From the IMG/VR virus record IMGVR_UViG_3300010354_000486, positions 1 through 27,645 of that record: DNA of 27,645 bases. One strand, written 5' to 3'. The notes under the pieces are model-generated. The model did not search any database and was not told where the DNA came from. It was given only the letters and a program-made list of their open reading frames with translations. Shown here one piece after another: positions 657 through 20,475 of the stretch. Every line of letters begins with the position of its first letter. Position 1 is the stretch's first letter. This DNA comes from a virus. Position numbers and translations under genes: made by a program.

Positions 657-902
657 ATGCCACAATCAGTTTATCGTTCAGCTGTTCTTTATAATTTTAC
701 TAGAAATCAATATGTTCTAATAGACCCAGGCACAATAGGCGGAGATCCTAACCAGGTAACATGGAGCTGGGTATCTAATCCTAACGATGCAACAAAGTGG
801 GTTAATGTACTGGAATTGCAATACTACTTAACCGATACACCTTTAGGTGATCCTACACAGAACCCATATCCTTGGGAGGTTCAGTGGTTATATTTTTCTT
901 AA
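657..902 (+). CDS. Single-domain repeat-family protein next to capsid
   Basis: This 81-residue protein is a single copy of the ~75-residue unit repeated three times in each of the next two genes. It opens with RSAVLYNFTRNQYVLIDP, then has WSWVSNPNDATKW (elsewhere NPWEAARF), a VLELQYY segment (elsewhere NLLEFQ) and a closing PWEVQWLYF (elsewhere GWEIPQFYF). It is rich in Trp and Tyr, with no signal peptide or membrane helix. It has its own late-type promoter and sits directly downstream of the capsid gene. That placement suggests a virion component such as head decoration, but this is inference; I do not recognise a named family. Confidence 0.8.
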   Translation: MPQSVYRSAVLYNFTRNQYVLIDPGTIGGDPNQVTWSWVSNPNDATKWVNVLELQYYLTDTPLGDPTQNPYPWEVQWLYFS

Positions 903-946
903 CAATCCTAGATAATGTAATCTATTCTAAAAATTTTTATGATATT

Positions 947-960
947 AAGATATATAAAAT
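947..960 (+). promoter_or_regulatory. Late promoter element (AAGATATATAAAAT)
   Basis: This copy of the shared ATATATAAA motif lies about 20 bases before the ATG at 979, in the A+T-rich gap after the 81-residue gene. Confidence 0.7.
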
Positions 961-978
961 TAAAAATAATAGATTACT

Positions 979-2463
979 ATGCCATCAATTACAAGAGCCG
1001 CTATTTTTTTAGCAAATGACGCAGGACGTTTTCTTATTCTTGATAATGATTTAGGTGTTCTAAAAGCCGAGACATATACAGAAAAAGAATATGCGTCAAG
1101 ATATGCCAATGTTGCAGCATTTCAGGCAATTGTACCAACTACATATTGGAGACCTAATCAATGGGGTGATGAAAATAAAACCCTAAATGATGCAGCGTAC
1201 GGGTTTCAAATTCGTGATAAGTACTGGATTAATCCGCAAGGAACACTTCAAGATTATGGTAATTCTTCTCCTAATACGGCAGGTGGTGCAAAATCTGTTA
1301 ATATATTAGATCGTACATCGGTAATGTACTCCTATGATAATGGGGCATTTCTTTGGATTGATCCGGCTACCCGAATGCTTCCTCCAGATCAAATGACATT
1401 TGCTTGGGTTGCTAGCCCATGGCAGGCTGCGAGATTTGATAATCTACTTGAATTCCAGACTATCATGGAAGGAACGAGTTTAGGTAGTATGAATTATGGT
1501 TGGGGTATACAACAATTTTTCTTTACAAAGGATCCTCTTTCGTATACTTTATCACAGCCGTTTTCTGCTGCTGGTGTTAGGCCTACTAGCGAAATTCAGA
1601 GAGCATTTGTACTATTTAATAATGATAAATCACTCTATCTTGCCATATCTAATCCTGATGATCCTATTCCTTCTATGAATTTAGATTGGACTAGAAATCC
1701 TTGGGAAGCCGCAAGATTTACAAATCTTATTCAATTCCAAAATATTTATGAATATCATTCAGGTTTCTTTGCTAATTTAATAAAAGGCTGGGAAATTCCT
1801 CAATTCTATTTTACACAAGAAAAGAAGGGTGCACCTGTTAGCGATCCTTATACAATTTTTTATTCGTCAAATCTTTGTTCAAGGGCTGTTAAATTACCTG
1901 GTGAATTTGCTAACGTATACCTGTGGATTGTGTATATGGCATCTCAAATTGACGATTGGCAATCTTTTTATAATTACATATGGGATTGGCTAAGTAATGT
2001 AAGAAACTTTAGAGATTACGATTGTTATAAAAAATGGTTTTATAATCAGGATCATAACTTAATGCAAACTTGGTTATATAACATATGGGCACCGAATTGG
2101 GGTAGAGAAACAATGCAACTCGAATTTGAAAAAGCTCTTGATATTCCAGGTCTTGAATGGGCTCGCCCAGATCTAGGATTTGGCGGTGGAATCGGGGATC
2201 CTATCTATGACTATTATACAGATAATTCAGACGGACAAATTCCTGAATGGCAGAACAAATACGGTAACATGACGGTAGGATTAGAGGCTCATGCAGGAGG
2301 ATTTCCAGATTGGGGTGAATTCGCCTATAAATACAGTACGATATTAGCTGATTGGAAATTATTTAATGGTCAAGAGGTATATGAAAAATGGTTTAATAAT
2401 CAGGATCAATCACTTATTGAACAGTATCTCTATAATAGATGGCGTATTGCTTGGGGTAAATAA
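979..2463 (+). CDS. Three-repeat virion-associated candidate, 494 aa
   Basis: The protein holds three tandem copies of one unit, at about residues 5-82, 112-184 and 207-280. The unit pattern is R-A/T-x-V-L/M-Y, a LxIxxP strand, WxxxPWxAARFxNLxEFQ, and a GWxIxQFFFT end. The first copy has extra shared text, PTTYWRPNQWGDE and DAAYGFQIRDK. After the units comes a different C-terminal region with two copies of another motif, residues ~325-375 and ~444-494, each with a KWFxNQDxxLxxxxLYNxW core. There is no signal peptide or membrane segment. The aromatic content is very high. It is the larger paralogue of the next gene and may be its co-transcribed partner. A role as a head decoration or surface protein is inferred from position only. 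Confidence 0.85.
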   Translation: MPSITRAAIFLANDAGRFLILDNDLGVLKAETYTEKEYASRYANVAAFQAIVPTTYWRPNQWGDENKTLNDAAYGFQIRDKYWINPQGTLQDYGNSSPNTAGGAKSVNILDRTSVMYSYDNGAFLWIDPATRMLPPDQMTFAWVASPWQAARFDNLLEFQTIMEGTSLGSMNYGWGIQQFFFTKDPLSYTLSQPFSAAGVRPTSEIQRAFVLFNNDKSLYLAISNPDDPIPSMNLDWTRNPWEAARFTNLIQFQNIYEYHSGFFANLIKGWEIPQFYFTQEKKGAPVSDPYTIFYSSNLCSRAVKLPGEFANVYLWIVYMASQIDDWQSFYNYIWDWLSNVRNFRDYDCYKKWFYNQDHNLMQTWLYNIWAPNWGRETMQLEFEKALDIPGLEWARPDLGFGGGIGDPIYDYYTDNSDGQIPEWQNKYGNMTVGLEAHAGGFPDWGEFAYKYSTILADWKLFNGQEVYEKWFNNQDQSLIEQYLYNRWRIAWGK

Positions 2464-2496
2464 AAACTTAAACTAAAAATAAAAAAAACTTAAACT

Positions 2497-3621
2497 ATGG
2501 CTATAGAAAGAAGAGCGGTCATCAAAGCACAAGACGCAGGCAGATGGCTCGTTGTAAAAAACATTTTTGGCGTCGATAAGGGAGACACCGTTGAATTGGT
2601 TACGGATGCTGATAGATATGCAAACCTTGCAGTTCTTGAAGCCCAAATCCCAACTACATACTGGTACCCTAACCAGTGGGGTGATGAAACTAAAACACTA
2701 TTTGATGCTGCTTATGGCTATCAAATTCGTGATAAGTTTTTCTCTGATTCACAAGGTGATCCTAATTTAGGAGTATCATCTACACCTAATGTTGCAGGCG
2801 GTGCAAAATCTGCTAATTCGTTGGATAGAACATCTGTTCTCTATTCAAATGACGTGGGTTGCTACATTGTAGTTACAAACCCTGGAGATCCGGTGACATC
2901 TTGGGAGGTTTATTGTACAACAAACCCGTTCTATGCTACAAGATTTGACGATCTTTCTAAGGTTGGTGACTGGTTAGATCAAACAAACTATGGTAATGTT
3001 GCATACGGATATAGCATAATGCAGTATGTTTTTACAAAGGACCCAGGTGTTGTAATAACCGATCCGTTTGTCCTACCGCCCCTAAATCCATTTAAGACTA
3101 TTCTTAGAGCATATGTTCCCTACTCTAATCAGGAAGGCGCATATCTGGTAATTGATAATCCTGCTGCTCCTATTCCTTCAATGACATTCCAGTACGTTAG
3201 AAACCCATGGGAAGCATCTCGTTTCCAGAACCTGGTTGATTTTAAGAATATCGTTGATGGTCGTCCTGATTTCTTTGGTACAACATTTAGAGCAGGCTGG
3301 GAAGTTCCGCAGTTCTTCTTTACACAGGATGCAAAACAACCTAGCGGTGATTGTAAAGATATATGGAGTTTTTTCCAGAGTGGAGATAAATGCTCACAAC
3401 TTCAATGGGCCGGTGACCAAACCTCATATGATATATTTGTAGATCTGGCACAAGCACAATGTTGTTCTTGGGAAGGCTTTTGGAAAAAAATCCAGTCGTG
3501 GATTTTTAATCCTCGTAACTTCCAGGATTCAGAATGTTATGACAAGTGGCTCCAATTCCAAGATCATACCCAATTAGAGCAATGTTTCTTTGCTCTGTGG
3601 AGAGAGTATGCATGTTGCTAA
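2497..3621 (+). CDS. Three-repeat paralogue, 374 aa
   Basis: This is a clear paralogue of the preceding gene. Units lie at about residues 5-80, 111-183 and 204-279, including PTTYWYPNQWGDETKTL, NPWEASRFQNLVDFKNI and GWEVPQFFFTQD. It ends with one copy of the second motif (residues ~324-374: ECYDKWLQFQDHTQLEQC), where the larger paralogue has two. The C-terminal part is cysteine-rich, including CC pairs near residue 322 and at the very end. The gap before it lacks the ATATATAA promoter but has a 13-base direct repeat (AAAACTTAAACTA at 2463 and 2485), so it probably shares the upstream transcript. An intrinsic terminator follows. Function unknown; duplication with the neighbour is evident. Confidence 0.85.
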   Translation: MAIERRAVIKAQDAGRWLVVKNIFGVDKGDTVELVTDADRYANLAVLEAQIPTTYWYPNQWGDETKTLFDAAYGYQIRDKFFSDSQGDPNLGVSSTPNVAGGAKSANSLDRTSVLYSNDVGCYIVVTNPGDPVTSWEVYCTTNPFYATRFDDLSKVGDWLDQTNYGNVAYGYSIMQYVFTKDPGVVITDPFVLPPLNPFKTILRAYVPYSNQEGAYLVIDNPAAPIPSMTFQYVRNPWEASRFQNLVDFKNIVDGRPDFFGTTFRAGWEVPQFFFTQDAKQPSGDCKDIWSFFQSGDKCSQLQWAGDQTSYDIFVDLAQAQCCSWEGFWKKIQSWIFNPRNFQDSECYDKWLQFQDHTQLEQCFFALWREYACC

Positions 3622-3717: not shown

Positions 3718-4827
3718 ATGAAAGAACTTGTTAACTTTGAACATTTCAAAATTATAAAAGAAGCTGAGGCTAAACTGGAGTCATATCTTGATTCCCTAAT
3801 GGAACAGGCAATTAATGAAGCACCTGCGCAAACACAAGCTGGCGCTCTTTTCCAAAACCCTGTAAAATTCATGAAGATTAAGAATAATGCCAAGAAGTAT
3901 CAACAAGCGCTGGTACAAAAGGCTCTTAATAATGTTGATTATGAAAAGAAAAAGCAGGCTGCAGGTGGAGAAGTAGATAAAGATAAAATGGAGGTTCTTA
4001 AACAGGCAAATGCTGCAAAGAATCAGGCTCTCTCTGATAAAGCTTCTGCTATCAGTGATCGTATGACACAATTGGCAACCAGCCCAGGACTTCAGGCTGT
4101 TAAATCTCTTGCTGTTTCAAAGGCTAAAGTTGCTGCAGCTGAAACTGCACTTAAAGCTGCTGATGCCGAAGAGAGTAAACAACTTAAGGTACAGATTGCA
4201 AAACTAAATGCTCAGGCCGCAAAGGCAGAAAAGACTATTAAGGATTATGAAAAACAGGAAGAGCCTAAAGCAGAAACTCCAGCAGAAGCTCCACAACAGG
4301 CAATGCCTAATGTAAAAGCTGAAACTAAACCTGAGGCTAAACCTGAGGCTAAACCAGAGACTGACACCCAACCTACAGCTGAACCTGCCACTACTAAAAA
4401 GACAAGAAGGCAGGAAGTGGAGGATCAAATTGCACAAGATAATGCAGCTCCTGCAAAAATAACTAAAGAATCACCGGCCGAAAAGAAAGAACGTGAAAGA
4501 AAAGAAACTATAACTAATAAGATAAATGATGCTGAGGCTGCAATTCAGAAAGCAGAAGGTGATAAAACTGTAGCTCAACAGGAAAAGGATGATCTGGTAA
4601 AACAATTAAATGCAGCTAAAGGAACAGATAAAGAAAATGCATTAGCAGTAGATGTTGCAAATGCCGATAGAGCAGTTAAAGATATTGATAAAGGTATTAG
4701 CAATCTTAAACAAAATATAAAGGATTTAAGAAGTCAATTAAAGGGAGATTCTAATGAATCTGCTGGTTATATCGGCGAATCCTTTACTGATAAGTTTAGA
4801 AGACTAATGAAAGACGTTAATGTATAA
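3718..4827 (+). CDS. Ala/Lys/Glu-rich coiled-coil protein
   Basis: This 369-residue protein is very rich in Ala, Lys, Glu and Gln, and long predicted coiled coils cover roughly residues 75-185 and 255-345. Between them is a Pro/Thr/Glu linker containing a KPEA micro-repeat (12-base tandem repeats near 4325-4360). The N-terminus (VNFEHFKIIKEAEAKLESYL) and C-terminus (ESFTDKFRRLMKDVNV) are more ordinary amphipathic helices. There is no signal peptide or membrane segment. Such composition is compatible with a scaffold, internal head or tail-fibre-associated role, but nothing in the sequence decides between them. It starts a new late-type transcription unit and overlaps the next gene by eight bases. 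Confidence 0.8.
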   Translation: MKELVNFEHFKIIKEAEAKLESYLDSLMEQAINEAPAQTQAGALFQNPVKFMKIKNNAKKYQQALVQKALNNVDYEKKKQAAGGEVDKDKMEVLKQANAAKNQALSDKASAISDRMTQLATSPGLQAVKSLAVSKAKVAAAETALKAADAEESKQLKVQIAKLNAQAAKAEKTIKDYEKQEEPKAETPAEAPQQAMPNVKAETKPEAKPEAKPETDTQPTAEPATTKKTRRQEVEDQIAQDNAAPAKITKESPAEKKERERKETITNKINDAEAAIQKAEGDKTVAQQEKDDLVKQLNAAKGTDKENALAVDVANADRAVKDIDKGISNLKQNIKDLRSQLKGDSNESAGYIGESFTDKFRRLMKDVNV

Positions 4828-5308
4828 AGTTCGTAAGATAAACTTTGGATGGTATAAAAGGCGGCATGGAATTCTTTTAGAGAATCTGCCGCCTTTAAAG
4901 CAACGATTTATGATAGAGAATGACTATCTTAAATGGTTAGATGCAGATACTCAAGTCTTTGAAGTTATATTTAAGATTGAGGATATGAATGATCATGAAA
5001 AGAATCCCAATAAGATTCTTTGGAATCCTTTTCGTGAAACCTTTACTACAATCAAAGAAGTTGAATCTGACTCAAATGTAGTGGATTGGACTTGTGCAAT
5101 TTGTGATGCCGAGATTAAATCCAGAATGGATTCAAAAAAGATAGAAAACTTTGTATGTAAACCTTGTTCTGAGGCACATAACTCACGGAATAAAAGGGTT
5201 GATCAAAGAATAATAGATTCCTCTGTTAAGTTTACTAAACACTGTAAATCTCTTTTAAAGGGTGAACAAAGAGAGTTTATCACACACGTTAAGAGATCAT
5301 TTAAATGA
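4820..5308 (+). CDS. Zinc-ribbon protein of unknown function
   Basis: This 162-residue basic protein has two Cys pairs, C92-x2-C95 (CAIC) and C113-x2-C116 (CKPC), spaced as a zinc ribbon. The N-terminal part contains RRHGILLENLPPLKQRFMIE and has no motif I recognise; the C-terminal tail is rich in Lys and Arg. The ATG lies inside the end of the coiled-coil gene (the ATGTATAA overlap ends at 4827), which implies translational coupling. Its 3' end overlaps the convergent reverse-strand gene by 12 bases. A nucleic-acid-binding role is plausible from the ribbon and charge but unproven. Confidence 0.75.
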   Translation: MYKVRKINFGWYKRRHGILLENLPPLKQRFMIENDYLKWLDADTQVFEVIFKIEDMNDHEKNPNKILWNPFRETFTTIKEVESDSNVVDWTCAICDAEIKSRMDSKKIENFVCKPCSEAHNSRNKRVDQRIIDSSVKFTKHCKSLLKGEQREFITHVKRSFK

Positions 5309-6106
5309 TAAAGCTTTTTCAATTGTAATTTTTGGCCAAACATTTAATAGGCTTTTTGGGGAAGCATTATAGACTTCAACACCTTTTTCTTTTAACAGAT
5401 CTGCAATTATTTTAAAGCCTGGTATAAATTGATTTCGATAGATATCATCGCCCGTTACAGGAACTGGGTATCCGCTATGATGATGGCCAGTTTTTCCATC
5501 ATTTCCCATATCATATCCTAACAGTATAATTCTTTTTACTCCTAGATGATATGCTAAATTAATTGCTGCATATCCACTATTATTACCATGTGATAGGGTA
5601 TCTTTTGATTCTTCTAATCCAAACTTATTTCCTTTCTTAAGAATCTTAACGTCACCCAAATAAGATGGATGATCTCTGATAGTGTATTTAGGACCCTTAA
5701 ATTCATCTATTTCTTTCTTTAGCCAACTATAGACTCTTGAGTCAGTCCAATACATTATGTCTGCATTAGGATAAGAAGATAATGATTTATTAATTGCTAT
5801 TGTCTTTTTTCCAATTAAGGAATTCCAATTAAAGTCTCTAAGAGATGGACCACCGCCTATGATAAAAACTGTTTCACCTTTCCAAATAGGATCAACCTTA
5901 CTAATAGGTCTCTTTCTTACTTCCTGTGATGTAGTGATGTTAAAGTTTCTTTTCTGAACTATTGGAATATTATCAGGACTTACTGTAATTTTAGCAAACT
6001 TATCATTTGATGAACCTTTCTTAATAACAGTAGGTGGTACGCCTTTTGCTTCTTTAATGATAGGCGTTCTTCTATCATTTCCAAGTATTTTCCTTACTCT
6101 TCTCAT
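5297..6106 (-). CDS. DUF115/MptE-like Rossmann-fold protein, possible glycan or nucleotide-sugar enzyme
   Basis: This is the only reverse-strand gene in the window (269 residues). A basic, low-complexity N-terminus of ~70 residues precedes a Rossmann-like domain starting with KGETVFIIGGGPSL (residues 76-89), followed by TIAINKS and ADIMYWTD. The second half has the family-like run SGYAAINLAYHLGVKRIILL, then GYDMG and a HHHSGYP cluster (~198-204). These features resemble the DUF115/MptE-like family (6-hydroxymethylpterin diphosphokinase-like), which is related to some sialyl- and other glycosyltransferases. The phage protein might alter a glycan or a nucleotide-linked sugar, but the substrate cannot be read from sequence. 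It is convergent with the zinc-ribbon gene and divergent from the clamp loader. A CATATAAG sequence 7-15 bases upstream of its start may be a reverse-strand promoter. Confidence 0.7.
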   Translation of the reverse strand: MRRVRKILGNDRRTPIIKEAKGVPPTVIKKGSSNDKFAKITVSPDNIPIVQKRNFNITTSQEVRKRPISKVDPIWKGETVFIIGGGPSLRDFNWNSLIGKKTIAINKSLSSYPNADIMYWTDSRVYSWLKKEIDEFKGPKYTIRDHPSYLGDVKILKKGNKFGLEESKDTLSHGNNSGYAAINLAYHLGVKRIILLGYDMGNDGKTGHHHSGYPVPVTGDDIYRNQFIPGFKIIADLLKEKGVEVYNASPKSLLNVWPKITIEKALSFK

Positions 6107-19476: not shown

Positions 19477-20475
19477 ATGAGTACACACGAAGAAAATATT
19501 AAAAAAGAGTTTGAAGCAGCAGAAGGTATCACTCCAGAGAATGATACTGTTGTTACTGATGGTAAAGTCAGTTCATTAGGTAAAGTAGATCCAACTAGAG
19601 GAATGGGTATTACGTCGCCAGACGATCCTGAAATTAGAAGAATTCAGGAATTAACCGGTTATCTAAAAATGGATTTAGGTAATTTACCTTCAGGCGGAAA
19701 GTTTTATAGAGAAGATTTTGAATTACATATTAGAGCTGCTCGCGTCGGTGAGATTAGAGATTTTTCTACAATGGATGAAGAAAATATTAGAGATGTAGAT
19801 GAAAAGCTAAATGCAATTCTTGTAGGTTGTACTAAAATCATGTACGGATCACAAAGAGGATCATATCGTGATATCCTTGAAGAAGATCGTATTTTTGTTC
19901 TTTTGTCCATCAGAGAGCTTACATTCAAAAACGGTGAAGCAAAATTAATGATGCCAGTCGGTAAAAAGAAATGTACAACATCTGCATGTAAGTCTCAAGA
20001 AAGTGTAGAGTTAAGAACATCAAATGTTCAATTTAATAATGTAGATGAATTGATTGAAAAGTACTATGATCATGAAAATCGTTGCTATACAATACCAACT
20101 AAAAATCATGGAGAATTATCTTTAGCTCCGCCTACAATTGGAGTTATGAGAGCAATTACCGATTGGGCTAGAAAAAGAGAAGAAGAAAATAAATCATGGG
20201 ATAAGTCTGCTCTTGCTGTATTACCTTATGTACAGAGAGAATGGAGAGGATTTGATGAAAAGCAAATCTTTTCTGCTATGACTGCATTTCAAGGATGGGA
20301 TACTGGTAAATATTCATTAGTATTCAGACTTGTAGAAAAAATGAAAATAGGTATTAAACCTGAATTTGTTTATCCATGTATTTCTTGTGGTGCGGAGGTC
20401 ACAGTTCCGCTTTCCTTTCCCGGCGGAATCAAATCTCTGTTCATTATTCAGGATATCTCTTCTGAACTTCTATAA
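19477..20475 (+). CDS. gp26-like baseplate hub / tail-assembly protein
   Basis: This 332-residue protein starts one base after the nuclease stop. Residues ~65-165 match the pattern of the T4 gp26 family: LGNLPSGGKFYREDFELHIR, then RVGEIRDFSTMDEENI, LNAILVGCTKIMYGS and EEDRIFVLLSIRELTF. A Cys cluster (CTTSACKS) and a C-terminal ISCGAEVTVPLSFPGG recall the zinc-binding CxxC strands of these proteins. T4 gp26 has 208 residues and works at the baseplate hub with gp51; position before the tape measure is like that of the tail-assembly chaperones of other phages. It is larger than T4 gp26 because of an N-terminal acidic extension and longer C-terminal part. Confidence 0.7.
   Translation: MSTHEENIKKEFEAAEGITPENDTVVTDGKVSSLGKVDPTRGMGITSPDDPEIRRIQELTGYLKMDLGNLPSGGKFYREDFELHIRAARVGEIRDFSTMDEENIRDVDEKLNAILVGCTKIMYGSQRGSYRDILEEDRIFVLLSIRELTFKNGEAKLMMPVGKKKCTTSACKSQESVELRTSNVQFNNVDELIEKYYDHENRCYTIPTKNHGELSLAPPTIGVMRAITDWARKREEENKSWDKSALAVLPYVQREWRGFDEKQIFSAMTAFQGWDTGKYSLVFRLVEKMKIGIKPEFVYPCISCGAEVTVPLSFPGGIKSLFIIQDISSELL

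Follow-up and report, generated by a model that had tools for sequence, protein, structure and literature searches.

What do the three adjacent genes just downstream of the major capsid gene in a stretch of viral DNA encode, and where do their products act? The stretch (the window, all 27,645 nucleotides of an IMG/VR virus record) carries at one end three genes, here called A, B and C, whose products share a repeated unit. The reading that we prefer, at a probability of roughly one half, is that a T4-like phage makes A, B and C late and carries them as dispensable proteins of the virion surface, probably as decorations of the head or neck, with the units docking and the C-terminus making contacts.

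Layout of the locus

The window starts inside a gene of the T4 gp23 type, whose 3' part occupies positions 3 to 575 of the plus strand, as do all features below unless noted. Matches to Pfam Gp23 (5e-16), PHROG 28442 (8e-41) and PHROG 138, "major head protein" (3e-13), agree with a first-pass annotation of this DNA, which had called it the major capsid gene. An intrinsic terminator follows (597-624), composed of a 12-pair stem and a T tail, whose sequence is kept in relatives. Gene A (657-902) encodes an 81-aa protein with a single unit (669-899) and is 74-84% identical to the relatives' versions. Gene B (979-2463) encodes a 494-aa protein with units at 988-1236, 1306-1533 and 1594-1821, and is an extra copy with no counterpart in relatives. 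Gene C (2497-3621) encodes a 374-aa protein with units at 2503-2751, 2821-3042 and 3100-3330, and is the nearest to the relatives' single three-unit gene, with 51-55% identity.

The next gene (3718-4827), which lies directly 3' of the capsid gene in most relatives, forms the far boundary of the slot that holds A, B and C, and probably encodes an internal head or prohead-core protein. Its N-terminus, in our view, resembles those of T4 internal head proteins and includes a T4-like targeting sequence. In contigs L053-L118, the corresponding gene has starts such as MKRVKSYNEFIAES, which likewise look like a T4-type capsid targeting sequence. The middle of the gene, in the window and in L053-L118, is of low complexity and differs between near-identical contigs. 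Farther downstream, an MptE-like gene (PF01973, 2e-10) at 5297-6106 on the minus strand is the sole reverse-strand gene within the late region, and its position is kept in the inspected relatives.

Genes A and B are each preceded by the late-promoter-like element ATATATAA (634-641 and 950-957, respectively), which resembles the T4 late TATAAATA box. The element of gene A is conserved in relatives, and the same element is found before their single three-unit gene. The window contains nine forward copies, eight of which sit 21-37 nt upstream of a start codon; the genes concerned include A, B, the internal-protein gene and the tail sheath gene. Both strands together contain 10 copies, compared with 4.4 expected, and 5 of 100 shuffles reach 10. 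To judge by these figures, the count barely exceeds chance, and the spacing to start codons is the informative part. The element is not present upstream of gene C, which is presumably cotranscribed with B by using the element at 950-957. Thus, separate late promoters, as proposed in the first-pass annotation, are plausible for A and B, but not for C.

A repeated unit of about 75 residues

A profile of the unit matches residues 5-81 of A; 4-86, 110-185 and 206-281 of B; and 3-85, 109-182 and 202-278 of C. Because this profile was built from the same units, the test was repeated with a profile of only the three units of gene C. The scores are then 1e-63 to 1e-65 for distant three-unit homologues and 3e-4 to 0.055 for the five one-unit proteins; among 400 shuffled control sequences, the best score is 11. 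This non-circular test confirms the first-pass count of one, three and three copies in adjacent genes. The units range from 74 to 84 residues in length. The motifs described earlier, a core NPWEAARF and an ending GWEIPQFYFT, best fit the third units, whereas the first units have a divergent core and an insertion of 8-10 residues.

In a tree of units, copies cluster by position across phages, and the first-unit clade and the one-unit clade are each recovered at 100. The triplication therefore came before every known three-unit gene and before the clade of phages that carry them, which does not bear out the earlier suggestion that the family grew from a one-unit ancestor. Gene B is a long-branched extra copy in this tree, and might have originated by duplication in the lineage of the window or been left there by loss in other lineages.

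Family and predicted fold

Searches of Pfam, NCBIfam and PADLOC with the unit proteins reveal no credible match; an Amidase_6 match (0.067) is below the family cut-off. However, phrog_7978 is matched by four of the eight three-unit proteins (best E 0.003). A member of this family, ORF150 of the Vibrio phage ICP1 (4e-40), is recovered from the ICP1 genome by the unit profile at 7e-4. Comparison by hhalign of the unit profile with phrog_7978 members gives P of 4e-5 to 8e-5, compared with 0.014 for the best of 58 unrelated control families. The sequence link appears weak but consistent. ORF150 and its family resemble the unit in length (about 77 aa), in a colinear core, T.NP.DATKF, and in predicted fold. 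Unlike the proteins of the locus, they are single-domain, lie away from the capsid-adjacent slot and lack the C-terminal domain described below. The first-pass annotation recognized no named family, which is correct for Pfam and NCBIfam, but the search with the aligned units that it proposed relates the unit to phrog_7978, a family that is known though unnamed.

Structure prediction, also proposed earlier for the 81-residue protein, gives models of moderate confidence (pLDDT 79.5 for that protein and 68.4 for a three-unit protein, in which the first unit is poor). The predicted fold of the unit is strand-hairpin-helix-strand, with four strands and one helix. In BFVD, the 81-aa model matches many small uncharacterised phage proteins at a Foldseek probability of 1.00, and ICP1 ORF150 is ranked second (E 0.012, probability 1.00, TM 0.63/0.68, 24% identity). 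The unit is thus not isolated, and is best read as a variant of a widespread small phage-protein domain.

The best PDB match of the model is 8qkh_N (chain N of 8QKH), which by sequence is gp56 of Staphylococcus phage 812, a terminator decoration protein on the outer neck surface (PMC12886913). This structural match is marginal and within the range of chance (Foldseek E 0.12, probability 0.66; VIA Z 5.1, 65 aligned residues, rmsd 3.9). The 87-aa gp56 is described as a small central domain framed by N- and C-terminal strands that run antiparallel, an arrangement like that of the unit. Unlike the unit proteins, gp56 forms neck dimers, has one domain only and has no detectable sequence similarity: its family, phrog_2811, gives an hhalign P of 0.37 against the unit, and the unit profile has no match in the phage 812 genome.

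A different fold is suggested by weak sequence matches of the unit proteins to designed beta-trefoils (E 0.008) and to galactosidase 1ups (E 0.03), and by trefoil chains at Z 2.5-4.2; the proteins might then be carbohydrate-binding, lectin-like adhesins. However, the designed-trefoil match comes from a single 21-residue strand pair that contributes three times (E about 190 for each), and the structural matches stretch one unit of four strands and a helix across a whole 12-strand trefoil. The lead was rejected as a short strand-pair match, and we consider lectin-like adhesins highly improbable.

The fold alone does not imply a virion protein, because most proteins that share it are small and uncharacterised, and ICP1 ORF150 has small hypothetical genes clustered around it. 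These same observations favor the strongest rival to a virion-surface location, namely that A, B and C are late intracellular accessory proteins resembling "morons". The unit would then be a general protein-interaction domain, and the C-terminus would track a varying target in the host or in rival phages. The late-promoter-like elements and the place directly 3' of the capsid gene argue against an intracellular role, as does, though weakly, the fact that PADLOC matches none of the proteins to a known defence system.

The capsid-adjacent slot in related phages

The locus, as recognized by the one-unit gene, is found in 12 other IMG/VR contigs; the record of the window itself was not among the contigs returned by these scans. 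The three-unit gene is present in 10 of the 12, and in the other two the locus is cut off by the contig end. Relatives with a complete locus have exactly one one-unit gene (82 aa) and one three-unit gene (371-384 aa) in the same place. The second three-unit gene and a duplicated C-terminal domain are specific to the window in comparison with the IMG/VR relatives found. Among 50,697 phage records, tblastn reveals no match to the 494-aa protein at E≤1 and none to units 2-3 of the 374-aa protein at E≤10, and solely unrelated matches to A (E 1-8). Similarly, the three-unit profile detects no relatives in genome_contigs, and the unit profile has no match in a Lak phage or in LR756500, a 462-kb phage record. 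LR756500 has homing-endonuclease-like genes and also a TnpB-like gene directly 3' of its capsid gene.

Outside the clade, among inspected relatives with 75-95% capsid identity, the internal-protein gene is usually within about 0.1 kb of the capsid gene. From the capsid gene to a downstream gene for a 163-aa protein, most of these outside relatives have about 1.0-1.4 kb, members of the clade 2.7 kb and the window 4.2 kb. The slot is filled by an unrelated protein of about 190 aa in the nearest outgroups (L053, L054, L055 and L061; 85-95%) and by a homing-endonuclease-like gene in L074 and L075 (at 100-1758 after the capsid gene in L074). No unit gene occurs in any searched capsid locus outside the clade, many of which are contig fragments. 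Empty in most of the outside relatives, and in some of them occupied by an unrelated protein or a homing-endonuclease-like gene, the slot is a site of gain and loss of dispensable genes. The patchy distribution of unit genes among relatives is as for dispensable genes.

Several other features of these loci were observed. The slot protein of L053, L054, L055 and L061, encoded just 3' of the capsid gene, contains FxxFN...FIKETYxLVEGHMSYDEY.... L006 and L007 also have homing-endonuclease-like genes directly downstream of the capsid gene. In L113, the capsid and internal-protein genes are in tandem duplicate, with the two capsid copies consecutive, which might be real or an assembly effect. In L054, from about 3.1 kb past the capsid gene, a clamp-loader gene is broken after GSPGTGK by an intein-like insertion.

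Acceptance of homing endonucleases by the slot is also consistent with an intracellular role. Alternately, because the unit genes adjoin the capsid and internal-protein genes, their products could be head chaperones or assembly factors that are absent from the virion or minor in it, and for neck decoration proteins a chaperone function is considered possible by the authors of the phage 812 study (PMC12886913). However, the unit genes are missing in near relatives with 85-93% capsid identity, and are therefore not generally required. We regard an assembly role as improbable, also in view of the variability described below.

A variable C-terminal domain

Proteins B and C both end in a domain of about 90 residues that is absent from the first-pass description of the three-unit proteins, although its diversification makes it the feature of the locus that tells most. 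It occurs twice in B (1843-2103 and 2200-2460) and once in C (3358-3618). The copies in B are matched by profile A8, the second at 6.7e-22, although the alignment already included most of this copy. The copy in C is Cys-rich and contains QDHxxL...W. The domain has the framework F..W..F...C..W...QDH..L....L...W and is mostly helical in the predicted model. No credible match was found in the PDB; helices of PNPase (Z 3.7) are a generic match. A match in LR756500 (E 0.036) is ascribed to chance; it involves a 352-aa ORF that lacks units and resembles the 332-aa protein of the window at 19477.

The domain that matches the end of C is a hot spot of diversity in relatives. Contigs L009 and L011 show differences of about 0-3% along almost the whole of 16 kb; in the two 150-nt blocks coding for the C-terminal domain, the figures are 12% and 19%. 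Within the domain, 27 codons have amino-acid-changing differences and one has a silent difference, and 12 codons have more than one base altered. The pN is 0.18, the pS 0.06 and the dN/dS 3.4, in comparison with a dN/dS of 0.29 for the units of the same gene. The L011 allele is also present in L008 and L010 (identical genes) and is thus not a single assembly error; the L009 allele is found in one contig. Contigs L001 and L002 differ by 11-14% at the same hot spot. Synonymous change is also raised in this pair (pS 0.13), in the neighboring gene too, so the difference looks like recombination. In both pairs, from which alone the diversifying signal is drawn, changed codons are far more frequent in the C-terminus than in the units (Fisher p 1e-10 and 8e-8). 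Variation peaks at 3101 (L001/L002) and 10051 (L009/L011) fall within the internal-protein gene that follows, close to or inside its stretch of low complexity. Across the clade, the three-unit protein is the most divergent of the gene products compared, and the capsid protein is 99-100% identical. For a chaperone of so conserved a capsid protein, such high variability of the C-terminus would not be expected.

A short 3'-terminal block of mostly nonsynonymous, often multi-base codon changes with a conserved frame is reminiscent of the variable region of a diversity-generating retroelement. However, no reverse transcriptase was found in seven records of 27-140 kb, nor a template repeat in contigs of 118 kb and 94 kb or the window, all of these sequences being incomplete, and the changes extend beyond AAY-type codons. 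The chance that a retroelement is involved seems very slim. The diversifying change also fits an intracellular arms race, and although an intracellular role is the strongest rival, we think it doubtful on the whole.

Possible function and implications

Late-type promoters, a gain-and-loss slot, a tandem domain whose closest solved look-alike, by a marginal match, is a neck decorator, and a diversifying end are together best fit by optional virion-surface proteins, and a virion-surface location is our leading interpretation. We infer the virion location, the docking role of the units and the binding role of the C-terminus from these features. The unit of about 75 residues would act as a docking module, present as one copy in A and as a covalent triple array in B and C. 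The C-terminal domain, which is helical and contains cysteines, would face outward and make the contacts. Its sequence seems to be diversified or swapped between phages that are almost identical elsewhere. Such diversification is expected if the domain contacts a changing partner, for example, a host or environmental surface. The window has a second three-unit gene, with the C-terminal domain doubled in one of the two copies (B).

T4 Hoc, which sits on the outer capsid surface, is composed of several domains (PMC3012670). Hoc and Soc, which are dispensable decorations of the gp23 head, provide a working analogy for A, B and C. Hoc is built of Ig-like domains, unlike the unit proteins, for which the searches gave no decoration family as a sequence match. 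Perhaps the locus even represents a capsid-docked, actively diversified display, in which the unit array is the anchor and the C-terminal domain is varied by a mechanism of its own, either targeted hypermutation or cassette exchange. We consider such a display rather unlikely; if it exists, these phages would have variable head-surface binders in addition to tail fibres.

The domain shared by many uncharacterised small phage proteins is, in this locus, capsid-adjacent, arranged in tandem and tipped with a diversifying end, which suggests a role for it. If B and C are located on the head, this clade would vary its head-surface proteins much as other phages vary the tips of their tail fibres, and the unit fold would gain a testable function, docking to virions.
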